Assembly: GCA_024304885.1 (NCBI GenBank)
Contig: JALJOM010000003.1
Location: 778,110-842,109 of the forward strand
Length of the DNA stretch: 64,000 nt
DNA from: Beijerinckiaceae bacterium
GTDB lineage: Bacteria > Pseudomonadota > Alphaproteobacteria > Rhizobiales > Beijerinckiaceae
Reading direction: 5' to 3'
A program made the translations under genes and the position numbers. This document shows positions 1 through 34,643 of this stretch, piece after piece. Each line of letters opens with the position of its first letter. The first letter of the stretch is position 1. The notes under the pieces are model-generated. The model was not told where the DNA came from and ran no database searches. It saw nothing but the letters and a program-made list of their open reading frames with translations.

Positions 1-2766
1 GTCGATCGCATGGTCGCCGAGATAGGGCAGGAGCAAGGTGTCGAGGACGGAGTGCCATTCGAGCCGATCCGGGCCCGAGCGCGCCCCGATCAGGGGATGC
101 CACGGGCTCGGGCGGATCATGCCCGCGGCCTCGACGGTCTCCGGCAGCCTGTATTGCTTGCGCTGCCAGGGGTAATGCGGCAGCGCAACCCGCGGTCCGG
201 GATCGGCGCCGAAGACCTTCTCGGCATCGACCTCGGCCCCGCGCGCGAGCGCCGTCGCGACCGCCGTGACGATCGGATCCTCGGCCTGGTCGCCGCGCGG
301 CAGGACGCAGAAGCTCGCGATCTCGTGCCCGCTCGCCGCCACGGTGTCGTTGATATGGGACAGCAGCGTCGGGCGCGGCGCGATCTCGACGAAGACCTCG
401 GCGCCGAGCCGGGCGGCTTCCGCGACCGCGTCGGCGAATCGGACGGGCTCGCGCACGTTGCGCCACCAATAGGTGGCATCGAGCTCGGCCCCGTCCGCCT
501 TGGCCGCGAAGACCGTCGAGACGAAGGTCACGGCGGCCTCGTGCAGCGGCAGGCCGGCGAGATCGTGCAGGAGCGGCGCTTTCACGGGGGCCATGAGCGC
601 GCTGTGGAAAGGATAGGCGAGGTCGAGGCCGCGGACCCTCCCGCCGTGGGGACGCGCCAGCGCGGGCATCCGCTCGAGGTCCTCGTCCGGGCCTGCGATC
701 GTGAAGGCGCGGGGACTGTTCACCGCGGCGATCTCGAGCCGAGGCAGCTCGGCCACGACCCGCTCGGCGGCTTCACGCGGTCCGATCAGGGCCGACATGC
801 CGCCGTGCCCATGCGTCAATTCCTGATGCAGGCTGCGGAAATGCACGACGCGGACGGCGCCTTCGAGATCGAGGATCCCGGCGGCCTCCGCGGCGGCGAC
901 CTCGCCCACGCTGTGGCCGAGGACGAAGGCCGGCTCGAGACCCTTGCAACGCAAGGCATAGGTTGCCGCGGACTGCACCGCGAAGAGCAGAGGCTGGGCG
1001 ACGGTCGCGAGGCGGAGCTTGGCTTCGAGGTCCGCGGCCCCGAGCGCCTGGATCAAGGACCAGCCGGCGAGCTTCTCGAAGGCCGCGCTCACGGCATCGA
1101 ACCGGTTCCGGAACGCCTCCGACAGCTTGTAGGCCGCAACGCCCATGCCCGCCCATTGGCTGCCGTTGCCGGCATAGACGAAAGCGACCGGCGCCGCGCG
1201 GCCCACCGCCGTGCCGAAGGTGAGGCGGGAGCGGTCGGCCGAATCGTCTCCCGCGGCCTCGAGCGCCGCGCAGAGAGACTCCGGCGTATCGTAAGGCACG
1301 ACGAGGCGCTCGGTCATGCGCTCGCGATGATGGCCGGCCGCCGCGACGATCTCCGCGGCCGCGGTGCGGTCGAGGCCGCGCAAGCGATCGGCATAGTCCG
1401 CGGCGAGCGCCGAAAGCGCAGCCTGGCTCTGCGCGGACAGCACGAGGTAGGACGGCGTCGGCGCGGGTGTCGTCACGGCCGAAGGTGCCGCGGCGTCGGC
1501 GATGATCACATGCGCATTGGTGCCGCCGAAGCCGAACGAGTTGACCCCGGCGAAGCGGATGGCGCCATTCCGCTCGAGCGGCTTCGGCTCGTCGCAAACC
1601 TCGAGGTTGAGGCCCGAGAAGTCGATGTCGGGATTGGGCTCCTCGAAATGGAGCGAGGCGGGGACCTCGTCGTGCTCGAGCGCGAGCATGGCCTTGAGGG
1701 TTCCGGCGAGGCCGGAAGCCGCTTCCGTGTGACCGATGTTGGTCTTGATCGAGCCGATCGGCAAGGGCTTGCCGCGGCGCCGTCCGAGCACCTCACCGAG
1801 CGCGCCCGTCTCGATCGGGTCCCCGACCCTCGTCCCGGTGCCATGCGCCTCGACGAAGGCGAGCCGCTCGGGATCGATCGCATAGTCGGCATAGACGCGC
1901 GACAAGAGCGCCGCCTGATAGGCCTTCGACGGCAGCGAGATGCCCGAGGTCCGCCCGTCGGAGTTCACGCCGGAGGCGTGGATCATCGCATGGATGCGGT
2001 CGCCCGCGGCGGCGGTGCGGTTGCGCAGCACGAAGACGACCCCGCCTTCCGCCCGGACATAGCCGTCGGCCTTGGCCGAGAAGGCCTGGCACAGCCCGGT
2101 GCGGGACAGCATCGAGGCCTGGGAGAAGCTCAGGAACCCGAACGGGCTCACGAGCGTGTTGACGCCGCCGACGATGGCCGTGTCGATGCGGCCCGAGCGC
2201 AAGGCGAGAACCGCCTCGTTCAAGGCGACGAGCCCCGACGAGCAGGCGGTATCGACGGTGAAGCTCGGCCCGTGCAGGTCGAAGGCATAGGACACGCGGT
2301 TCGAGATGATCGAGAGCGTGTTTCCGGTGGCGAAATAGGGATCGGCTCCCGCGCTGTCGAGGATGCGCAGGTTGCCGTAATCGAGAGCCGAGGCGCCGAC
2401 GAAGACGCCGGTCTCGGAGCCCGCGAGTGCGGAGGGCTTGATGCCCGCATCCTCCAGCGCCTCGAAGGTCAGCTCGAGCATCAGCCGCTGCTGCGGATCC
2501 ATCTGCTCGGCTTCGCGCGGCGAGAGGCTGAAGACGGAAGGGTCGAAGCCCCAGATGTCGTCGAGGACACCGCAGGACCAGGTATAGCTGCGGCCGCGCT
2601 CGTTCTGGCGCGGATGGTAGAGCCGCTCGAGCGACCATCGCTCGGCGGGGATCTTGGACACGGCGCAGCGACCCGCGCGAAGCAGATCCCAAAGCGCGTC
2701 GATCGACGGCGCTCCCGGCAAGCGACAGGAGCGGCCGATGATGGCAATATCGAGCGAATCTTTCAA
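1..2766 (-). CDS. Type I polyketide synthase, KS-AT-(DH) N-terminal part
   Basis: Iterative or modular type I polyketide synthase, cut by the window edge, so the reductive and carrier domains are not visible. In order: a ketosynthase (about residues 1-430) with the complete triad, Cys175 in DTACSSG, His308 in EAHGTGT and the KTNIGH histidine; an acyltransferase (about 530-830) with nucleophile Ser619 in GHSVGE and a PFHS motif at the HAFH position, which fits malonyl-CoA; then the start of a dehydratase hot-dog domain (HPLIG, ending at the edge near the expected catalytic His in DHAID). No ATG fits; a TTG at 2766 with a GGACGGGG ribosome site is the best start, because an in-frame stop lies about 45 bases further upstream. 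It follows a GNAT acyltransferase and an alpha-oxoamine synthase on the same strand after a 214-base gap, so it probably makes the acyl chain that those enzymes use. The domain calls are certain; the product is not known. Confidence 0.93.
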   Translation of the reverse strand, partial: MKDSLDIAIIGRSCRLPGAPSIDALWDLLRAGRCAVSKIPAERWSLERLYHPRQNERGRSYTWSCGVLDDIWGFDPSVFSLSPREAEQMDPQQRLMLELTFEALEDAGIKPSALAGSETGVFVGASALDYGNLRILDSAGADPYFATGNTLSIISNRVSYAFDLHGPSFTVDTACSSGLVALNEAVLALRSGRIDTAIVGGVNTLVSPFGFLSFSQASMLSRTGLCQAFSAKADGYVRAEGGVVFVLRNRTAAAGDRIHAMIHASGVNSDGRTSGISLPSKAYQAALLSRVYADYAIDPERLAFVEAHGTGTRVGDPIETGALGEVLGRRRGKPLPIGSIKTNIGHTEAASGLAGTLKAMLALEHDEVPASLHFEEPNPDIDFSGLNLEVCDEPKPLERNGAIRFAGVNSFGFGGTNAHVIIADAAAPSAVTTPAPTPSYLVLSAQSQAALSALAADYADRLRGLDRTAAAEIVAAAGHHRERMTERLVVPYDTPESLCAALEAAGDDSADRSRLTFGTAVGRAAPVAFVYAGNGSQWAGMGVAAYKLSEAFRNRFDAVSAAFEKLAGWSLIQALGAADLEAKLRLATVAQPLLFAVQSAATYALRCKGLEPAFVLGHSVGEVAAAEAAGILDLEGAVRVVHFRSLHQELTHGHGGMSALIGPREAAERVVAELPRLEIAAVNSPRAFTIAGPDEDLERMPALARPHGGRVRGLDLAYPFHSALMAPVKAPLLHDLAGLPLHEAAVTFVSTVFAAKADGAELDATYWWRNVREPVRFADAVAEAARLGAEVFVEIAPRPTLLSHINDTVAASGHEIASFCVLPRGDQAEDPIVTAVATALARGAEVDAEKVFGADPGPRVALPHYPWQRKQYRLPETVEAAGMIRPSPWHPLIGARSGPDRLEWHSVLDTLLLPYLGDHAID

Positions 2767-2980
2767 TGAACCCCGTCCAGGTTGCCCGGCTAGGTCGGTC
2801 GATACCGGTTCCTATCGTCGGATAAGGGTCTGGCGATTGTGGCGGAATTTCCGATCACCGGCGCGGGGAACCGAGTTCGTCCTCGGCTTTCGTTCCGGGT
2901 CGGTGCTAGGCTCTAGGTGACATACCGCGCCGGATGTCGACATTGGTTACTCGTCACATTCTCCATAGCCGAGTCGCGGG

Positions 2981-4120
2981 CTAGATGGAACGCTCGTAGA
3001 TCCGAAACCGGCGAGTTATCCGCGCCTGGAGCCGCCCGACCAGGTTCAAAACGGCACGATTGGTCTCGAGCATCCAGCTGATCTCGATTTCCTCGACGCC
3101 ACCTCTGCGCGCCTGCTCGATCGCCTCGGCGAGGAGCAGGCAAACGGCGAGCGCGCCGACCCGCGTGCCGCGCCATTTCGGGGCGACGCCGATCATCGGG
3201 ATGCGGCTGCGGCGCGTGCCCCGTACGTGGAGCCTCCACGCGAGCGTCGCGAAGCCCTGCGGCAGCAGCCGGCCGTGGAGCCCGGCGAGGGCCTCGTTCA
3301 CGTCGGGGATCTGGGCGACGACGGCGATCGGCTCGCCCTTCCATTCGGCGAGGCGGACCCAGCCGGGCTTCGAGACGGGCAGCATGAGGCGCGCGATCAT
3401 GCGTGCTTCCGCCTCGCTCACCGGGACCGAGCCCCAGTTCCGCTGCCAGGCGTCGTTGTAGAGCTTCATCACGCGGGGGAAGCCCGACCGCCACGTCGCG
3501 AGGGATAGGCCCTGCGTCGAAATCCGGCTCGCGCACGAAGCCTTGGCCGTGACAGCGGCGACCTCGGAGCAGAACCTCGGCTGGTCCACCGTGCAGCAAG
3601 CCGCGAGAAGATCCATCACCTTGCGGCACCCGGCCGACTCCAGGTGCTTTGCATAGTAGGGGGGCGCGTGATTCGTGCGGACCGTGTGAGGCTGCTCGAA
3701 ACCCTCGATCAGCAGCCCTGCCTCGTGATTGATCGAGACGCCGTAGGGCCCTTGCATGGACCGCAGGCCGGCTCTGCGCAGCGTCGCCGCGGCGGTATCG
3801 AGCAAGCTCGTGAACACACGCGGGTCGTCGACCCCCTCGAGCAGGCCGAAGTGCCCGGTCCTGGAGCCGTGCCGCTCGAGGAACGCCGGGCTCACGATCG
3901 TCGCGATTCGCCCGACCGGCACATCGTCCTTGAAGGCGACGAAGGTCCGAATCTCGTTCTCGGTGACGAGCGGGGAGCGTCCGGGATCGAAGGCGAGCCG
4001 GTAGTCCAGGTGAAGCGGCTCGACCCAGCGTGGATTGCCCGCCTCTGCACGCCGTGCGGCATCGAGGAAGCTCCCGAGGCCGGATGGCCCGTGAACCTCG
4101 CGGACATCGATCGCCGCCAA
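2981..4120 (-). CDS. GNAT-superfamily acyltransferase, YghO-like
   Basis: Large (379 aa) GNAT-fold protein of the family annotated as N-acetyltransferase or YghO-like, not a simple small acetyltransferase. The N-terminal half carries the family signatures NPRWVEPL, the VGRIATI strand and GPYGVSINHEAGLLIEGF; the C-terminal half has a second GNAT-like lobe with GVAPKWRGTRVGALAV, resembling the acyl-CoA pyrophosphate-binding loop. Bacterial ceramide synthase has been assigned to the GNAT superfamily, so N-acylation of the amino-ketone made by the upstream alpha-oxoamine synthase is a reasonable inference, but it is not proved here. Start is a TTG at 4120, only 12 bases after the upstream gene's stop; no ATG or GTG fits better and the ribosome site is weak. 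Same strand and almost certainly the same operon as the alpha-oxoamine synthase, with the polyketide synthase next downstream. Confidence 0.85.
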   Translation of the reverse strand: MAAIDVREVHGPSGLGSFLDAARRAEAGNPRWVEPLHLDYRLAFDPGRSPLVTENEIRTFVAFKDDVPVGRIATIVSPAFLERHGSRTGHFGLLEGVDDPRVFTSLLDTAAATLRRAGLRSMQGPYGVSINHEAGLLIEGFEQPHTVRTNHAPPYYAKHLESAGCRKVMDLLAACCTVDQPRFCSEVAAVTAKASCASRISTQGLSLATWRSGFPRVMKLYNDAWQRNWGSVPVSEAEARMIARLMLPVSKPGWVRLAEWKGEPIAVVAQIPDVNEALAGLHGRLLPQGFATLAWRLHVRGTRRSRIPMIGVAPKWRGTRVGALAVCLLLAEAIEQARRGGVEEIEISWMLETNRAVLNLVGRLQARITRRFRIYERSI

Positions 4121-4132
4121 CGGCTTGCCCGG

Positions 4133-5491
4133 TCACCTGGCCGCGCCCACGATCGAGAGCCCGTCGCCGATCGACTTCATCGACTCTGCGACCGCGTCGC
4201 AGGTGGCGTGAATTTGCGCGCTCGTGTGCTCCGAGGTCAGGAAGAAGCGCAACCGCGCGCAGCGCTCCGGAACCGCCGGATGAATGATCGGCTGGACGTT
4301 GATGCCATGATCGAACAGCATCTGGCTCAGGCGAACCGCGATGATCGAATCGTGCACGACGATCGGGACGACGGCATGGCCGAGGCTCGTCCCGACGTTC
4401 AAGCCGCGCGCGGTCGCAAGCTCCCAGAACAGCTTGCTGTTGGCCCTGAGGCGGGCGACCCGCTCGGGCTCGCGATGCAGCACGGCGAGCGCGGCGAGCG
4501 AGGCCGCGGCCATCGGCGGCGGCATGCCGACGCTGTAGACGAACCCGCCGGCCATGCACTTGAGATATTCGACGAGCGCGGTCTGCCCGGCGATATAGCC
4601 GCCGCAGCCGGCGAGCGTCTTGGACAGGGTTCCCATCCAGATATCGACCTCGCACGGATCGACCCCGTGCAGCTCGAACAGCCCCTTGCCGGTCTCGCCG
4701 AGGACGCCGAGGCCATGAGCCTCGTCCACCATGAGCCATGCGCCGTAGCGCTTCTTGAGCTCGACGAGCGCCGGCAGGTCGGGATAGTCACCGTCCATGC
4801 TGTAGAGGCCTTCGACGACGATCAGCACGCGCTCGTAGCGCGCCCGGTGCTTGGCGAGCAGCTCGTCGAGCGCGGAAAGGTCGTTGTGCTGGACGGCCCG
4901 CCGCTCGGCGCCGGACAGCATCGCGCCCAAGAGGATGCTGTTGTGGGCGAAGCTGTCGTAGACGACGAGGTCGCGCGGTCCGAGCAAGGCGCCGATCGCG
5001 GAGACGTTGGTTGCATGGCCGCTGACGAAGACGATGGCGGCTTGCTGGCCGTAATGCGCGGCGAGCGCGCTTTCGAGCTCGCGATGCAGCGGCCGCTCGC
5101 CGGCGACGAGGCGGCTCGCCGAGCACGAGGTGCCGAAGGTCTCGATCGCGGCGGCGGCAGCGGCCTGAACCTCGGGATGCCCGTTGAGGCCGAGGTAGTC
5201 GTAGGACGAGAAGTTGATGCAGCTGCGACCGCCGATCAGCGCCGTCGCGCCGGAGCGAGCCTCGTGCATCTTGAAGAACGGGTTGGCGAGGCCCACGACA
5301 TCGGCCATGGATCGCTGGAGCCTCAGCTCGTGCATGCCGGGCAGGGTCGTGAAATCGGTCATCGCGGCATACGGCGACTGCTTGGACGCTCGTCCCTTGT
5401 CCCCGTTCTGCTCGGCATCACGCCGTCGCAGCACTAGATTCTGCAAGACCTCGCGCGCATCGTCCCGGAGCCCGGTCTGAGTACTTTTCAT
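4133..5491 (-). CDS. Alpha-oxoamine synthase (serine palmitoyltransferase / KAPA synthase family)
   Basis: PLP-dependent fold-type I enzyme that condenses an acyl thioester with an amino acid, losing CO2. The PLP lysine is Lys291 in GTLSKTLAGCGG, the aspartate pairing with the PLP nitrogen is Asp256 in VDEAHG, and His183 lies in the FAHNS motif. At 452 aa it has about 50 residues more at the N-terminus than BioF, a long leader seen in serine palmitoyltransferase-like and PKS-linked members. No biotin genes are near; its neighbours are a GNAT acyltransferase (12 bases downstream), a polyketide synthase and a divergent CDP-alcohol phosphatidyltransferase. This argues for release of a polyketide or fatty chain as an amino ketone (sphingoid-like base) rather than biotin synthesis. 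The amino acid substrate cannot be read from the sequence. Family assignment is secure; the pathway is inference. Confidence 0.92.
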   Translation of the reverse strand: MKSTQTGLRDDAREVLQNLVLRRRDAEQNGDKGRASKQSPYAAMTDFTTLPGMHELRLQRSMADVVGLANPFFKMHEARSGATALIGGRSCINFSSYDYLGLNGHPEVQAAAAAAIETFGTSCSASRLVAGERPLHRELESALAAHYGQQAAIVFVSGHATNVSAIGALLGPRDLVVYDSFAHNSILLGAMLSGAERRAVQHNDLSALDELLAKHRARYERVLIVVEGLYSMDGDYPDLPALVELKKRYGAWLMVDEAHGLGVLGETGKGLFELHGVDPCEVDIWMGTLSKTLAGCGGYIAGQTALVEYLKCMAGGFVYSVGMPPPMAAASLAALAVLHREPERVARLRANSKLFWELATARGLNVGTSLGHAVVPIVVHDSIIAVRLSQMLFDHGINVQPIIHPAVPERCARLRFFLTSEHTSAQIHATCDAVAESMKSIGDGLSIVGAAR

Positions 5492-5826
5492 GCTGCGGCA
5501 TGCCTTTCGTTACGTCTGCATCGCATCGCGACGCCTCGATTCGGGACTCGACACTCGATCCGGCTCCATAACGCAGCAAAAGCTCGCCGGTCAGATCCCA
5601 GCCTCCTTTCTCATCGTCGTCGTTGTTTCTTAAGCTCGCCTGAAAGAAACTCGAAATCAATCCGAGCCACGCCTCCGTCACATTTCGTCACAAGAATGAT
5701 GACGTTGTGAACATTTCGGCTTGCCTTGCCTCGCGCATATGAGAAAATTCATCATAGGTCACGATCTTCGTCCAGCCCATCATTCCCGCATCGCTGGAGC
5801 GTGCCGAGCGTCAAGCCCGAGGTCCT
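5492..5826. other. Divergent promoter region between the alpha-oxoamine synthase and CDP-alcohol phosphatidyltransferase genes
   Basis: 335 bases with no convincing gene. It must hold the start signals of the leftward lipid operon and the rightward phosphatidyltransferase gene. Around 5675-5712 there is an AT-richer stretch with repeated GTCAC/GTGAC-like half-sites (TCACATTTCGTCAC and, inverted, GATGACGTTGTGA), which could be an operator. No defined promoter could be assigned. Confidence 0.35.
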
Positions 5827-6570
5827 ATGTCGGCCGGTTGCCGAGTGCAAGCCAATCTCGTTGCGCGCCACGAGCGCCGCGCTCTCGACTGGATGTGCGA
5901 GCGGATGCCGCCGTGGGTCACCTCGGACGGCTTGACCGTCGTCGGCATGGGCGGTGCCGCGCTCGCGCTCGCGGGCTATTGCGCGACAGGCCTCGATCCG
6001 GCTCTGGTCTGGCTCGCGACCCTCGGGATCGTGGTTCATTGGCTCGGTGATTCGCTCGACGGCAGCCTGGCTCGGTACCGTGGCTGCGAGCGACCGGGCT
6101 ACGGCTATTATCTCGATCACGCGGTCGATGCCCTGTGCAATCTCGCGATCGTCGGCGGTCTCGGGCTGTCGAGCTTCGTGCGGCTCGACGTCGCCCTGTT
6201 CACGCTCTGCGGCTACTACCTTCTTTGTATTCACGTGTTCCTGCACAACCATGTCACGGGAGTGCTCAGGCTGTCCTTCCTGGCTCTCGGCCCGACCGAG
6301 CTCAGGATCGGCCTCGTCACGATCAACACCGTGTACGTCTTCCACGAAAGCTTCGGCGCGTCGGCGCGAGGCCCCTTTTCCGCCTATGACTTCTTCTTGA
6401 TCGGGGTAGGTTGCGTCTTCGTCGCGATCTTCGTCTTTCAGCTCGGCGCGACACTTCGGTTGCTGCGCGGGTTCGGGCCGCATGACGAGCGACGGCCCGA
6501 GGCGAGACCGGCCGCGGGGCAAGCACGAGCTCAGAGGGTAGAGACGAAATCCTCGATCCTCGCGAAATAG
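5827..6570 (+). CDS. CDP-alcohol phosphatidyltransferase family membrane protein
   Basis: Integral membrane enzyme that transfers a phospho-alcohol head group from a CDP-activated donor. The CDP-OH-P signature is present around residues 77-104: DSLDG, then AR, then GYYLDHAVD, giving all the expected Asp and Gly positions with one extra residue in the central spacer. About five or six hydrophobic segments follow. At 247 aa it is in the normal size range. It is divergent from the alpha-oxoamine synthase and overlaps the end of the convergent glycosyltransferase gene by 40 bases. Next to a polyketide synthase and a sphingoid-type synthase it may add the head group to an unusual lipid; a housekeeping role such as phosphatidylglycerophosphate or phosphatidylcholine synthesis is less likely because the sequence does not look like PgsA or Pcs. 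Substrate unknown. Confidence 0.85.
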   Translation: MSAGCRVQANLVARHERRALDWMCERMPPWVTSDGLTVVGMGGAALALAGYCATGLDPALVWLATLGIVVHWLGDSLDGSLARYRGCERPGYGYYLDHAVDALCNLAIVGGLGLSSFVRLDVALFTLCGYYLLCIHVFLHNHVTGVLRLSFLALGPTELRIGLVTINTVYVFHESFGASARGPFSAYDFFLIGVGCVFVAIFVFQLGATLRLLRGFGPHDERRPEARPAAGQARAQRVETKSSILAK

Positions 6571-7844
6571 GCGATCCGGTCGGCCTCGTGCGACGTCCCC
6601 GCGCCAGCTCGCGCCCCACGCAATGGCTCGCCATGTGCCAAGGCGCGAATCGCTTCGAGCCACGCCGCCGCGTCGTTCGGGCCGAGCAGCGTGAGGACAT
6701 CGCTCGAGATCGAACGAAATGCCGGGATGTCGGACGCGACGACCGGGATACCGGCAGCCAGAGCCTCGCGCACCGGAAGCCCGTAGCCCTCCGCGAAGGA
6801 GGGCATCAAGAGCGCGCGCGCGCCGTCGAGGAGATGCTTCATCGCCGGCGTGGAAAGCCCCGCGACCTCGACGACATGGCGGGCGAGCGCGGACGATCGT
6901 TCGAGAAGATCGGCCACGGGCTCGAGCTTCCAGCCCCGCGTGCCGACGATCACGAGCTTCGGTGCGCCCGCCCCGTCACGCCGCACGAGCTCGTGCCACA
7001 GGTGCAGCAGCATCAGATGATTCTTGCGCGGCTCGATCGTGCCGCAGACGACGAAATAGGGGTGCCGAGAGAGCGCGACGTCACGGGCCGGGGTCGAATG
7101 AAAGATCGGCGCGACGGGGACGGGCGCGACGAGGATCGGCATCGCCTTGCGCCCGCGCCGGGCGAGATGGGCCGAGAGGCTCTCCGCGACGGTCTCGGTC
7201 GCGACGATCGCTCCGGCGCCGAAGCGCGCGAGATTGGCGAGGCGGCGACGATGGCGCGCATATTCCTCGTCGCGGAAATAGGCCGGCAGCTCGAGCGGCA
7301 GGAGATCATGGATGAAGAACACGGCCTTCATGTCCGGCCGGGCTTCGAGCCATTCGAAATAGGACGATATCCACAGGGGAAATTGGCTGGCGTTGACGTA
7401 CCGCGCCCCGCGGGGCAGCGCCTTCTGCGGCGAGCTGCCGATCGGCCCGCCGTAGCGCCGGCACCAGCGCAGGATCCCGGCGAGACGCCCGCTCCGGCCC
7501 TCCGTCACGCGAGGCACCGACGCGGCCGGCCGATCGGGCGGCTCGGGTCCCGCCAGATACGCCGCGACCTTCAGAAAGGCCGGATCCGCGATCGGGTCCT
7601 TGTCCTCGCCCCAATGCGCGGCAATTCCGTCGATCGCTGCATGCGAGGCCTCGGCGGAGAAGAGCCGCGGGCGGAGCACGGCGGTCGCGATCAGCCCGAA
7701 TCGATCCGGGACGGCGGGATCGACGAGACGCATCGCCAAGGCATGATCGACCCGATCGATCCCGTTCGGGGTCGCGGTCAGGACACGGGTGACCAGCCGG
7801 GTGATGTCATAGGCGATCGGCGCCGACAAAGTCCCCGCCTTCAC
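6531..7844 (-). CDS. GT4-family glycosyltransferase
   Basis: Glycosyltransferase with GT-B fold, 437 aa. The C-terminal half carries the nucleotide-sugar site typical of family 4: YFVVCGTIEPRKNH at the domain junction, then PSFAEGYGLPVREALAAGIPVVASD, where the E-x7-E pair contacts the donor sugar. The N-terminal half is the acceptor domain and has no recognisable subfamily signature. No signal peptide or membrane segment, so it works in the cytoplasm or at the inner face of the membrane on a lipid or polysaccharide acceptor. Starts with GTG at 7844, overlapping the stop of the upstream DUF1491 gene by four bases (GTGA), so the two are translationally coupled. Its 3-prime end overlaps the convergent phosphatidyltransferase gene. 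Donor and acceptor are unknown; a link to the lipid cluster is possible but unproved. Confidence 0.88.
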   Translation of the reverse strand: MKAGTLSAPIAYDITRLVTRVLTATPNGIDRVDHALAMRLVDPAVPDRFGLIATAVLRPRLFSAEASHAAIDGIAAHWGEDKDPIADPAFLKVAAYLAGPEPPDRPAASVPRVTEGRSGRLAGILRWCRRYGGPIGSSPQKALPRGARYVNASQFPLWISSYFEWLEARPDMKAVFFIHDLLPLELPAYFRDEEYARHRRRLANLARFGAGAIVATETVAESLSAHLARRGRKAMPILVAPVPVAPIFHSTPARDVALSRHPYFVVCGTIEPRKNHLMLLHLWHELVRRDGAGAPKLVIVGTRGWKLEPVADLLERSSALARHVVEVAGLSTPAMKHLLDGARALLMPSFAEGYGLPVREALAAGIPVVASDIPAFRSISSDVLTLLGPNDAAAWLEAIRALAHGEPLRGARAGAGTSHEADRIAYFARIEDFVSTL

Positions 7845-14988: not shown

Positions 14989-15870
14989 ATGACGAGCGAG
15001 AAGGCGACGGGGCTCGAGGCAAAACGGCGCGGGAGGCCCGCTTTCCGGTTCATTCTCTGCGCCGACGATTTCGCGCTGTCGGCTGCGGTCAGCCGCGGCA
15101 TTCTCGAAGCCTTGGACGCGGGGCGGATCAGCGCGACGAGCGCCATGACGACGCGACCGTCCTGGCCAAAAGGAGCCGCCGACCTCCGCGGCTTCGCGGG
15201 GCGAGCCGATATCGGGTTGCATATCGACCTGACGCTCGGAGCGCCGCTCGGCCCGATGCCGACCTTCGCGCCGACGGGGTCGCTGCCCGATCTCTACCGG
15301 GTCCTCGGGCTCGCCCGCAAGGGCAGGCTGCCCGAACGAGAGATTCGCGACGAGATCGCCCGCCAGATCGATGCTTTCGTCGAATATTTCGGCACCTGGC
15401 CGGACTTTGTCGACGGCCATCAGCACGTGCAGGTCCTTCCGCGGATTCGGACCTGGCTCCTCGATGCTCTCGACCACCGCGGGCTCGCGGGAAAGGTCTG
15501 GCTGCGCGACAGTGCGGATCGTCCTTGGCGCATCCTGCGGCGCGGCATCGAGGCGACGAAAGCGCTGGCGATCGCCGTTCTCGGCAAGGGCTTTTCTCGG
15601 GAGGCGCGTCGCCGCGGCTATGCGACGAACGAGGGCTTCGCCGGCTTCTCGCGCTTCGATCTCGCGCGCGACTACGGGGCCGACTTCGGGCGATATCTCG
15701 AGGCGCCGGGCGGGCGCCACCTCGTGATGTGCCATCCGGGCTATTGCGACGCGGAGCTCGCGTCCGTCGACGCGGTCACGCTGACGCGCGAGCGTGAGCT
15801 CGCCTTTCTTCTGTCCGATGATTTTCCACGGGCGCTGGAGCGCGCGGGCGCTGCCCTCGCGCGTTTTTGA
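14989..15870 (+). CDS. ChbG/HpnK (YdjC-like) family polysaccharide or glycolipid deacetylase
   Basis: 293 aa TIM-barrel-like deacetylase of the YdjC family. Metal and catalytic residues are in CADDFALS (Asp-Asp), the ADIGLHIDLTLG motif (His) and DGHQHVQVLP (His-x-His), with MCHPGYCD near the C-terminus supplying another His. The family includes ChbG, which deacetylates chitobiose, and HpnK, linked to hopanoids. No other hopanoid genes are close, but the divergent GT2 gene makes a lipid-linked amino sugar a fair guess. The ribosome site AGGTGAGG precedes the ATG. An SDR oxidoreductase gene follows after 23 bases. Confidence 0.88.
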   Translation: MTSEKATGLEAKRRGRPAFRFILCADDFALSAAVSRGILEALDAGRISATSAMTTRPSWPKGAADLRGFAGRADIGLHIDLTLGAPLGPMPTFAPTGSLPDLYRVLGLARKGRLPEREIRDEIARQIDAFVEYFGTWPDFVDGHQHVQVLPRIRTWLLDALDHRGLAGKVWLRDSADRPWRILRRGIEATKALAIAVLGKGFSREARRRGYATNEGFAGFSRFDLARDYGADFGRYLEAPGGRHLVMCHPGYCDAELASVDAVTLTRERELAFLLSDDFPRALERAGAALARF

Positions 15871-15893
15871 ACTCTGCGACAATAGGGGGAGTC

Positions 15894-16667
15894 ATGTATC
15901 GTGCGAGCGCGAAGGACGGCATCGCCTGGGTGACGGGCGCGAGCGGAGGGATCGGCCGCGCGGTCGCTCGGGAACTCGCCGAGCGCGGCTACGTGGTCGC
16001 CACCACGGCGCGGCGGGCGGACGAGCTCGACCGGCTGGCCGCCGAGGAGCCCCGCATCCTGAGCTATCCGGGCGACGTCACCGACCGCGCCCAGATGGCG
16101 CGGCTCGTCGCCGAGATCGAGGCCGCGCACGGGCCGATCGCGCTCGCCTTTCTCAATGCCGGCGTCTATTTCCCGGCCGAGCGCAAGGGCTTCTCGGCGG
16201 AGGTCGCCTGGCGCACCCTCGAGGTCAATCTCGGCGGCACGATCAACGGCCTCGATCCGTTGATCGGCGTCATGAAGGCGCGCGGAAAGGGCCAGATCGC
16301 GATCAATTGCTCGCTCGCGGGCTATTCCGGTATCCCGGGCTCGGCCGCCTATGGCGCGTCGAAGGCCGCGCTCATCTATCTCGCCGAGGCCTTGAAGCTG
16401 ACCTACGACCGGGTCGGGCTCACGTTCCAGGTGGTGAGCCCGGGCTTCGTGGCGACCGACATGACGGCCCACGCGGATTTCGAGATGCCTTTCCTCATGA
16501 GCGCCGGGCAGGCGGCGACGCTCGTCTGCGACGGGTTCGAGCGCGGCGGCTTCGAGATCACCTTTCCGCGCCGTCTCGCCTATGCGGTGCAGCTCGCGTC
16601 GATCCTGCCCTATCCGCTTCGGTTCTACATCATGCGCCGCATCACGAGCTTCCATCAGCAGGAGTGA
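15894..16667 (+). CDS. SDR family NAD(P)-dependent oxidoreductase
   Basis: Classical short-chain dehydrogenase, 257 aa. The cofactor motif is TGASGGIG; the arginines after strand 2 (ATTARRADEL) fit NADP(H). The catalytic set is present: Asn in NAGVYF and NLGGT, Ser in NCSLAGYSG, Tyr and Lys in YGASKAAL. The C-terminal region is more basic and hydrophobic (RRLAYAVQLASILPYPLRFYIM), suggesting contact with the membrane and a lipid-like substrate. Start is ATG 15894 with an AGGGGGA site; an in-frame TTG near the stop of the upstream deacetylase is less likely. Probably co-transcribed with that deacetylase. Substrate unknown. Confidence 0.9.
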   Translation: MYRASAKDGIAWVTGASGGIGRAVARELAERGYVVATTARRADELDRLAAEEPRILSYPGDVTDRAQMARLVAEIEAAHGPIALAFLNAGVYFPAERKGFSAEVAWRTLEVNLGGTINGLDPLIGVMKARGKGQIAINCSLAGYSGIPGSAAYGASKAALIYLAEALKLTYDRVGLTFQVVSPGFVATDMTAHADFEMPFLMSAGQAATLVCDGFERGGFEITFPRRLAYAVQLASILPYPLRFYIMRRITSFHQQE

Positions 16668-33115: not shown

Positions 33116-33919
33116 ATGGCGTTGCTCGCACCTTTCCTCAATGCCTGGCACTTTCGAGAGCTCATTCGCGCCGTCGTGCGGCGTGAGCTCGCGGCGAGGT
33201 TCTCCGATACGATTCTCGGCTGGGTCTGGGCGGTCTTCGGCCCGCTCGTCATGCTCTCGGCCTATACGTTCGTCTTCTCGTCCGCGGTCGGCCTGCCCGT
33301 TTCGGCGAAAGGCGGCGGCTTCGGGGCCTATGCGCTCTCGATCTTCTCGGGCCTCATCGTCTTCAACCTCTACAGCGAGATCGCCTATCGCTCGCCGAGC
33401 CTGCTGCACGAGCATGCGGGCTTCATCAAGAAGTCGATCTTTCCCTCCGAGACGCTGGCCTGGACCGCAACAATCCGGGCCTGCGTCTACAGCGCGATCA
33501 GCTTCGCCGTGCTTCTCGTCTTCCTCGTCGTGCTGACCTTTCGCTTGCCCGCGACCTCCGTGCTGCTGCCCTTCGTCTTCGCGCCGTTTTTCCTTCTCCT
33601 GCTCGGGACGTCATGGTTCCTGATGGCGCTCGGCTCGTTCACGCGTGATGTCGGCTATCTCATGATCTCGATCGTGCCGGTGCTCATGTTCGCGACGCCG
33701 ATTTTCTACTCGATCGACGACGTGCCTCCGGACCTGCGCATTTACGTTCACTTCAACCTTATCGGCAATTATGTCGAGATGATCCGTAATCTCTTGTTAC
33801 TCGACACGGTTCCGAGCCTCGGCCTATACGTGGGAACGACCGTGGCGTCGATCGTGATGTTCTACTTCGGCTATGGCTTCTTCATGAAGTACAAGGCGGT
33901 CTATGTCGATGTCATCTGA
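33116..33919 (+). CDS. ABC-2 type permease for polysaccharide export (Wzm/KpsM-like)
   Basis: 267 aa membrane subunit with six helices. The family layout is clear: an amphipathic N-terminus (FRELIRAVVRRELAARFSDTILGWVW), membrane segments at about residues 35-57, 73-93, 117-143, 151-173, 183-203 and 240-258, and the LFATPIFYSIDDVP-type loop (here MFATPIFYSIDDVP). It exports a lipid-linked polysaccharide or O-antigen with the ATPase encoded next, which overlaps it by 17 bases. No glycosyltransferase genes lie beside it, so its cargo is unknown. Confidence 0.92.
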   Translation: MALLAPFLNAWHFRELIRAVVRRELAARFSDTILGWVWAVFGPLVMLSAYTFVFSSAVGLPVSAKGGGFGAYALSIFSGLIVFNLYSEIAYRSPSLLHEHAGFIKKSIFPSETLAWTATIRACVYSAISFAVLLVFLVVLTFRLPATSVLLPFVFAPFFLLLLGTSWFLMALGSFTRDVGYLMISIVPVLMFATPIFYSIDDVPPDLRIYVHFNLIGNYVEMIRNLLLLDTVPSLGLYVGTTVASIVMFYFGYGFFMKYKAVYVDVI

Positions 33920-34643
33920 CCTGGTAATCCGCTGCGATCGCGTGGGCAAGGCGTATCAGCTCTACCTGCGCCGCAACGACCAGCTCAAGCAGACCTTGCT
34001 CGGGGCCTGGAGGCAATTCTATCACGAGCATTGGGTGCTGCGTGACGTGAGCTTCAAGGTCCATCGCGGCGAGACGGTCGGGATCATCGGCCGCAACGGC
34101 GCGGGCAAGACGACGCTTCTGCAGATCATCTGCGGGATCACGCAGCCGACGCACGGCATGATCGAGGTCAAGGGGCGGATCGCTCCGATCCTCGCGCTCG
34201 GCGCCGGCTTCGATCTCTGCCTCACCGGTCGAGAGAATGCCTTGATCGGCGGAGCGATCCTCGGGATGCGGCGCTCGGAGGTCCTGGCACGGCTCGACTC
34301 CATCAAGGATTTCGCCGACATCGGCGATTTCTTCTACCAGCCCCTGAAGATGTACTCGACCGGCATGGCGGCGCGGCTCGCCTTCTCGATCTGCGCCCAT
34401 GCGGACGCCGATATCCTCATCGTCGACGAGGCACTCTCCGTCGGCGATGCGGCCTTCGGGACGAAATGCGACGCTTTCATCAAGAACTTCACGACGCATG
34501 GAACCGTGCTCGTCGTCTCGCACGACCTCGACACCCTGACCACGATGTGCGACCGAGTCGTCTGGATCGAGGACGGCCTCGTGCGCGATCTCGGCAAGCC
34601 GAAGGACGTCATCCACTCCTATCGCCACGCGATGCAGGCGTGA
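33903..34643 (+). CDS. ABC transporter ATPase for polysaccharide export (Wzt/KpsT-like)
   Basis: 246 aa ATP-binding subunit. Walker A is GRNGAGKTTLL, the signature is in MYSTGMAARLAFS (the YSxGM form typical of polysaccharide exporters), Walker B is DILIVDEALSVGD, and the switch His is in LVVSHDLDT. The protein ends soon after the nucleotide-binding domain, without the C-terminal carbohydrate-binding domain of Wzt O9a, so it is KpsT-like in build. Start is ATG 33903 within the permease gene, giving translational coupling; ATG 33909 is the alternative. Confidence 0.93.
   Translation: MSMSSDLVIRCDRVGKAYQLYLRRNDQLKQTLLGAWRQFYHEHWVLRDVSFKVHRGETVGIIGRNGAGKTTLLQIICGITQPTHGMIEVKGRIAPILALGAGFDLCLTGRENALIGGAILGMRRSEVLARLDSIKDFADIGDFFYQPLKMYSTGMAARLAFSICAHADADILIVDEALSVGDAAFGTKCDAFIKNFTTHGTVLVVSHDLDTLTTMCDRVVWIEDGLVRDLGKPKDVIHSYRHAMQA

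Follow-up and report, generated by a model that had tools for sequence, protein, structure and literature searches.

A candidate polyketide synthase-fed sphingolipid gene cluster in a Beijerinckiaceae genome that also carries a canonical gene pair

A gene cluster at one end of a 64,000-nucleotide stretch of DNA (hereafter the window; C3:778110-842109, C3 being contig 3 of the 3.82 Mb genome GCA_024304885.1) probably encodes a second sphingolipid pathway of its host, one fed by a polyketide synthase (PKS). The host, of the Beijerinckiaceae, belongs to Methylocella or stands close to it. The cluster joins a type I PKS gene with genes for an alpha-oxoamine synthase (AOS), a GNAT acyltransferase and a CDP-alcohol phosphotransferase (CDP enzyme). 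The original prediction, made from the sequence of the window, had noticed these four gene types and proposed that the PKS builds a chain, the AOS releases it as a sphingoid-like amino ketone, the GNAT enzyme N-acylates the product and the CDP enzyme adds a head group. Open reading frames and Pfam domains place all four genes where they had been read. The list of four was incomplete, since a GT4 glycosyltransferase overlooked at that time belongs to the set as a fifth member, and the product may therefore be glycosylated. Because other genera carry the same combination of genes, the cluster is more than a chance assembly. It looks able to run an enriched form of the pathway that was first demonstrated in a Pseudomonas in 2025. 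Our argument draws on which genes are present, on the order of the domains with their motifs and predicted folds, and on the phylogeny and co-conservation described below.

Results

Gene order and the polyketide synthase

The AOS, GNAT and PKS genes are transcribed in this order from the minus strand, with a gap of 12 bp between the end of the AOS gene and the start of the GNAT gene, while the CDP gene on the plus strand meets the GT4 gene tail-to-tail (Table 1). The PKS is one open frame of 2,474 amino acids that extends 4.7 kb to the left of the window, and the DNA there, to which the original prediction had pointed for the missing domains, completes the same frame with a ketoreductase (KR) and an acyl carrier protein (ACP). 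The domain order is KS-AT-DH-(middle)-ER-KR-ACP, and KS, AT, DH, ER, KR and ACP are all found by Pfam. The motifs are DTACSS, EAHGTG and KTNIGH in the KS, GHSVG and YPFHS in the AT, HAIDGQVILP and DSCFH in the DH, GGAGGVG in the ER, GGLGGFG and QGAYVAAN in the KR, and GLDSL in the ACP. The GxGxG pattern of a methyltransferase was sought in the middle part and not found, and Pfam detected no thioesterase domain in the full frame. A PKS with a terminal thioesterase is thus ruled out, as both Pfam and motifs show an ACP end. Membership in an unrelated cluster is ruled out likewise, as the PKS stands with an AOS of the PKS-linked clade.

Table 1. Features of the cluster, with positions in the window
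Feature	Position	Strand	Evidence
Single-module type I PKS, first 922 of 2,474 aa (KS-AT-start of DH)	1..2766, continuing to C3:773451	-	Pfam, motifs
Tandem-GNAT N-acyltransferase, bacterial ceramide synthase-like, 379 aa	2981..4120	-	Acetyltransf_1, YghO homology, fold
Alpha-oxoamine synthase, PKS-linked clade, serine palmitoyltransferase-like, 452 aa	4133..5491	-	Aminotran_1_2, TLSK, tree
CDP-alcohol phosphotransferase, proposed head-group enzyme, 247 aa	5827..6570	+	motif DSLDGSLAR(x9)GYYLDHAVD, CDP-OH_P_transf
GT4 glycosyltransferase, a conserved neighbour that converges with the CDP gene	6531..7844	-	profile search, recurrence beside the CDP gene

As a single-module, fully reducing type I synthase that ends in an ACP and has no thioesterase, the PKS fits the core formed by sgaAB and by rkpA-rkpG. 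BLASTP over about 2,500 columns gives identities of 55% with Methylocella silvestris, 45% with Hansschlegelia, 44% with Aquibaculum and 40% with Shinella, followed by Sinorhizobium (rkpA-type, 39%), Paraburkholderia (38%) and a Pseudomonas plasmid (37%). The PKSs of Caballeronia and Planktothrix align to it only in pieces.

The alpha-oxoamine synthase

The AOS contains the pyridoxal phosphate lysine motif TLSK together with DEAH, and matches Pfam Aminotran_1_2. The original prediction had left room for a stand-alone BioF replacing one missing from the genome. This candidate is ruled out. The window AOS scores 351.6 against TIGR00858 (BioF), below the cut-off of 426.45, whereas another gene of the genome reaches 439.3 bits and adjoins BioD, and is the true BioF. 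A housekeeping serine palmitoyltransferase (SPT) was rejected as well, because the same genome encodes elsewhere a canonical SPT-type AOS with a GNAT gene following it (G000:C4:7845-10466, L042) and the two AOSs are separated in the tree. The genome may therefore hold two sphingolipid pathways. A further AOS-like enzyme of this genome (C3:2545223-2546260, L007) falls below every listed NCBIfam cut-off.

In a tree of 53 AOS rows, the PKS-linked AOSs form one group of 41 rows (support 96/98) that includes the window AOS together with rows from Sinorhizobium/Rhizobium (rkpG-type), Shinella, Pseudomonas, Burkholderiales, Planktothrix and Streptomyces. The canonical AOS at C4 belongs to a separate group of 8 rows (support 100/99). 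The label PKS-linked is given by gene neighbourhood, and rows with no PKS in view are unlabelled. The long outgroup branches (BioF, ALAS, L007 and L091) meet, so that the root and the outgroup places are unsure; L055 (a short frame), L093 (caught by a stop filter) and four duplicate loci were left out. The AOS gene lies close to the PKS gene as in the sga/rkp core, but with the GNAT gene between them. In two rows the matching AOS segment is part of a single long annotated gene, on a Planktothrix plasmid (L146:5560-13158, a type I PKS) and on a Streptomyces plasmid (L145:8383-13206), where the AOS is apparently fused to a larger protein.

The substrate of an AOS is not readable from its sequence, and its relatives serve several pathways. 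The enzyme might therefore use glycine, alanine or another amino acid, or its amino ketone might be a secreted signal or natural product instead of a sphingolipid. We regard this as quite improbable, because the window AOS shares its clade with other PKS-linked AOSs, because the characterised PKS-AOS system is described as preferring L-serine almost exclusively (PMC12134224), and because a membrane lipid would fit the GNAT, CDP and GT genes next to it.

The GNAT acyltransferase

The GNAT protein lies just above the cut-off of Pfam Acetyltransf_1 (21.2 vs 20.7 bits). The original prediction had suggested comparing it with YghO of Escherichia coli, and the two are indeed full-length homologues (32% identity). 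Its identity with the GNAT of the genome's canonical AOS-GNAT pair is 30%. Its predicted fold is a tandem GNAT, with small-molecule and tandem GNATs as the top structure matches; its profile found no usable relative among PDB sequences (best E 0.037). YghO and the genome's canonical GNAT are the comparisons behind its description as bacterial ceramide synthase-like.

In the GNAT tree, which leaves out 9 of the 113 rows collected because they were duplicate or partial (L023-L025, L044-L047, L049 and L073) and to which the window was added, the window-type clade comprises 25 rows. An AOS stands directly before the GNAT in 24 of them, the exception being Beijerinckia mobilis (L060). A PKS lies in the same stretch in 18 cases and elsewhere in the genome in 4; one (Roseiarcus) has none, and two genomes were outside the search. 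A PKS that feeds the GNAT in place of the AOS is thought unlikely, since an AOS is present in 13 of 18 PKS stretches of the family, all 13 from genomes without the window-type GNAT.

The CDP enzyme and co-conservation across genomes

The CDP enzyme exceeds the cut-off of Pfam CDP-OH_P_transf (23.4 vs 22.0 bits) and retains the intact catalytic motif D..DG..AR..G...D...D in a predicted membrane helical fold. Co-conservation was followed in 149 genomes of the family, with a PKS called at at least 46% identity over KS-AT. A match at E <= 1e-100 occurs in 49/149; 18 of these were not counted, two as short fragments (G025 and G127) and 16 as weaker matches, which leaves 31/149 genomes with the PKS. 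A CDP match at E <= 1e-10 is found in 33 genomes, and 19 of them also hold the PKS (p = 6e-8). A stricter limit of E <= 1e-40, chosen after the list was seen, excludes G089 (41% identity, E 1.5e-34); under it 19 of 21 genomes have the PKS as well (p = 5e-14). The window-type GNAT occurs in 9 genomes, one as a contig-edge fragment, and 8 of the 9 have the PKS (p = 1e-5), while any GNAT match occurs in 44 genomes, 15 of them with the PKS (p = 0.01). All of these p-values are inflated by the relatedness of the genomes.

The two genes also lie close together: PKS and CDP are within 10 kb in 13 of the 19 genomes that share both, and CDP and GT4 are tail-to-tail in 11 of 15 distinct loci holding both, the window excluded. 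These counts bear on the possibility that the product of the CDP enzyme is a glycerophospholipid of the ordinary kind or an inositol phospholipid, and that the gene neighbours the PKS by coincidence. In view of the tie to the PKS among the strong matches and of the conserved arrangement with GT4, we hold that to be quite improbable; the enzyme tracks the PKS across the family.

In M. silvestris the PKS, AOS, GNAT, CDP and GT genes are all found together. This species can be cultured and is non-pathogenic. The contig in question (G040, placed in one genus with the window genome) is that of M. silvestris TVC (NZ_PDZR01000013.1), letter-identical over the 16,082 bases compared. The operon order PKS-AOS-GNAT occurs in 11 Methylopilaceae/Chelatococcus loci and in Aquibaculum. 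One scan for homologous loci covered the best 80 of 140 loci.

Discussion

Proposed pathway

A possible course of synthesis can be drawn from the gene set. The fully reducing single-module PKS would iterate malonyl units into a long saturated acyl chain, which would stay on the ACP of the PKS because no thioesterase is present. The AOS would then release the chain as a 3-keto-sphinganine through decarboxylative condensation, the amino acid partner being most likely L-serine; the passing of the chain to the AOS and the choice of serine are suggested by analogy with relatives such as PfSgaB. A short-chain dehydrogenase/reductase (SDR) would reduce the ketone, and the best candidate for it is encoded elsewhere in the genome, at C3:2827059, sharing 45% identity with the L062 SDR and 40-48% with the SDRs at several further PKS-AOS loci. 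N-acylation by the GNAT would yield a ceramide, to which the membrane CDP enzyme would add a phospho-alcohol head group, acting where rkp-type loci carry an LTA-synthase-family gene. The GT4 enzyme may add a sugar, either to the lipid or to its head group, and the late steps may follow in another order. The product is likely a lipid of the outer envelope and possibly an anchor of a surface polysaccharide.

The pathway of the original prediction is thus borne out in part. A PKS without thioesterase, an AOS of the PKS-linked group, the homology of the GNAT to YghO and the tie of the CDP enzyme to the PKS speak for it, whereas the novelty of its core idea and the need for the GNAT did not stand. 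That core had already appeared in print in June 2025 (PMC12134224) and is present in rkp-type capsule clusters as well. The combination of the PKS-AOS core with a GNAT, a CDP-alcohol enzyme and a GT was not found in print among open-licence PMC texts, supplements aside. We tentatively suggest that two parallel sphingolipid pathways exist in this organism, the second making a PKS-built phospho-glyco-ceramide from the sga/rkp core, a GNAT ceramide synthase and a CDP-alcohol-type ceramide phospho-alcohol synthase similar to ceramide phosphoethanolamine synthase (CPES). The cluster suggests that PKS-dependent sphingolipid synthesis extends to full phospho-ceramides with N-acylation and head-group steps of its own, and this in methanotroph-related Alphaproteobacteria, in a genome that also keeps the canonical SPT-type pair.

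Comparison with known systems

The closest characterised system is PfSgaAB(C) of Pseudomonas fluorescens MYb115 (Peters 2025, PMC12134224). By the account given there, this PKS-AOS pair makes sphinganines of C24-C28 and also yields probable phosphoglycerol sphingolipids, PfSgaB prefers L-serine almost exclusively, and the authors consider it the first example to their knowledge of PKS-derived bacterial sphingolipids. As described, a type I PKS, there an iterative one, and an adjacent AOS, there with SPT activity, are common to both systems, and a phospho-head group is carried by part of the PfSga product. PfSga products are, according to the same description, free and probable phosphoglycerol sphinganines, whereas the window cluster has in addition a GNAT, a CDP-alcohol phosphotransferase and a GT4, and the SDR is unlinked in the window genome. 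The main text of that paper does not mention acyltransferase, CDP-alcohol or capsul.

The canonical ceramide pathway of Caulobacter (Spt, bCerS and CerR), as described in PMC11087976 and PMC11324152, likewise employs an AOS and an N-acyltransferase, and CC_1159, a protein with a CDP-alcohol domain, takes part there in head-group assembly. By these accounts its fatty acid arrives via AcpR/AasR or CoA, in contrast to the dedicated PKS of the window cluster. Similarly, CPES of insects is an enzyme with a CDP-alcohol phosphotransferase domain, for which the motif D(X)2DG(X)2(A/Y)R(X)8-16G(X)3D(X)3D is given (PMC9550178); the spacing in the window motif is 9, a likeness at the level of the motif. 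Unlike the window enzyme, CPES is eukaryotic.

The fumonisins and sphingofungins of fungi are mycotoxins, and we know of no GNAT or CDP-alcohol head-group enzyme in the clusters that make them. These clusters also combine a PKS with an AOS to give sphinganine-like products, as noted in PMC12134224.

Points against the pathway and the role of the GNAT

Several observations weigh against a complete PKS-fed ceramide pathway in the window. The AOS is below every NCBIfam SPT cut-off, a test that says little because the genome's canonical SPT-type AOS fails it too. Within the PKS-linked clade sits one AOS on a long branch with no PKS in view (L123), and in the tree rkpG-type and Pseudomonas plasmid AOSs stand in for PfSgaB. 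The window genes have no cluster-type SDR next to them, and the SDR encoded at 15867-16667 reaches at best 34-39% identity with the SDRs of such clusters. Among the 33 genomes with a CDP match are 14 without the PKS, and homologues of CDP and GT are absent from the fetched stretches of the Methylopilaceae/Chelatococcus loci.

The remaining points concern the GNAT. The original prediction gave it a step of the pathway, and it is not essential: three congeners (G103, G126 and G144; L150-L152) keep PKS-AOS-CDP-GT and a GT2 without the window-type GNAT. The core in this family is thus PKS-AOS-CDP-GT, to which the GNAT is an added part. Among more distant GNAT loci, 31 of 57 have no AOS in the fetched stretch (3-21 kb, queried with the window AOS), nor has yghO of E. 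coli K-12 among its listed neighbours, so that GNAT homology is no proof of ceramide synthesis. Taken with the top fold matches among small-molecule and tandem GNATs and the lack of a solved sequence relative, this leaves some room for a GNAT that acylates another amine, such as an amino sugar or a head group, or that has a separate function in the operon. We consider this unlikely and retain ceramide synthesis as the proposed role.

A link to surface polysaccharide

Alternatively, the same chemistry may serve another end, with a product that is no free membrane sphingolipid but the lipid that anchors or carries a surface polysaccharide exported by an ABC system. Plasmid-collection records place the PKS-AOS core among genes for capsule or polysaccharide export in Sinorhizobium, Pseudomonas, Paraburkholderia, Shinella and Caballeronia, and a lipid-anchor role has been proposed for rkpA/rkpGHIJ of the Sinorhizobium rkp-1 region (rkpA-J), as described in PMC3557214. 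Of the 31 family genomes with the PKS, 22 were examined, and 11 of these have KpsE- or Wza-type genes in their fetched PKS/AOS/GNAT stretches (two as edge fragments), against none of 57 more distant GNAT loci, 28 of which have stretches of at least 20 kb. In Aquibaculum, PKS-AOS-GNAT lies beside an SDR and a Capsule_synth protein.

The window genome itself gives a different picture. It has no Capsule_synth protein (KpsC/KpsS/RkpJ, PF05159), with control matches in E. coli and B. subtilis (2/14); the KpsE pair and the best Wza homologue of the genome are encoded far off, and 25 kb separate the cluster from the ABC pair at 33116-34643 of the window. The Methylopilaceae trio PKS-AOS-GNAT has no KpsE- or Wza-type gene in its stretches. 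The rkp-type loci resemble the window in a collinear PKS and an AOS of the same clade. All five loci fetched, one from each genus, further carry an SDR and an LTA-synthase/sulfatase-family gene; the LTA synthase is annotated in Pseudomonas, Paraburkholderia and Caballeronia and detected by tblastn only in Sinorhizobium and Shinella. Capsule_synth is found by Pfam in Sinorhizobium and Pseudomonas, as a tblastn homologue in Paraburkholderia and Shinella, and not in Caballeronia. Unlike these loci, the window genes have no SDR, LTA-synthase-family gene or Capsule_synth beside them, and the Pseudomonas LTA-synthase-family protein as query gave no tblastn match (E 1e-6) in 103 kb around the cluster.

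In an Acidisoma plasmid a capsule locus (L147:11037-23929) combines an LTA-synthase-family gene, an SDR and an AOS that groups with the canonical ones, with no PKS annotated in 25 kb. A capsule-lipid AOS may thus work without a PKS. The window's own link to surface polysaccharide is weak, and the anchor reading is possible but on balance doubtful for this organism. Nevertheless, the old question of which lipid the rkpA/wcbR PKS genes make, and whether it is a sphingoid anchor for surface polysaccharide, is now testable. Should the sphingolipid pathway hold and its lipid anchor a polysaccharide, the lipid identity of the rkp/wcb capsule clusters would be told as well.

Neighbouring genes and related loci

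To the left of the PKS lie a histidine-kinase-type gene and others with no visible link to the cluster, as judged from their sequence. A GT2 glycosyltransferase, weakly HpnI-like (58.5 bits, cut-off 310), stands beside the CDP gene in Methylocella and Methylocapsa (L057:6082-7269 of M. silvestris TVC, L150-L152 and L061). No homologue of it is found in 103 kb around the window cluster, and the GT2 beside the genome's own SDR at C3:2827059 was rejected as such, having no significant match to it.

The yghO gene of E. coli K-12 (NC_000913.3:3129043-3134823, L170) lies near yghQ, a putative transport protein, and yghR/yghS/yghT, putative ATP-binding proteins, with IS5 between yghO and yghQ; the region may be the remnant of a lipid locus. 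GNAT homologues with no AOS in the stretch occur in Gammaproteobacteria and other groups (L085, L104, L117, L129 and others of L079-L135), and by these sequences the YghO family is wider than sphingolipid loci. GNATs of another branch stand beside a stand-alone ketosynthase (L051:9410-12094 in G022; L052:8999-11788 in G062), joined at L052 by an AOS, an SDR and a small protein of ACP size. In these loci, type II parts may replace the chain-supplying PKS.

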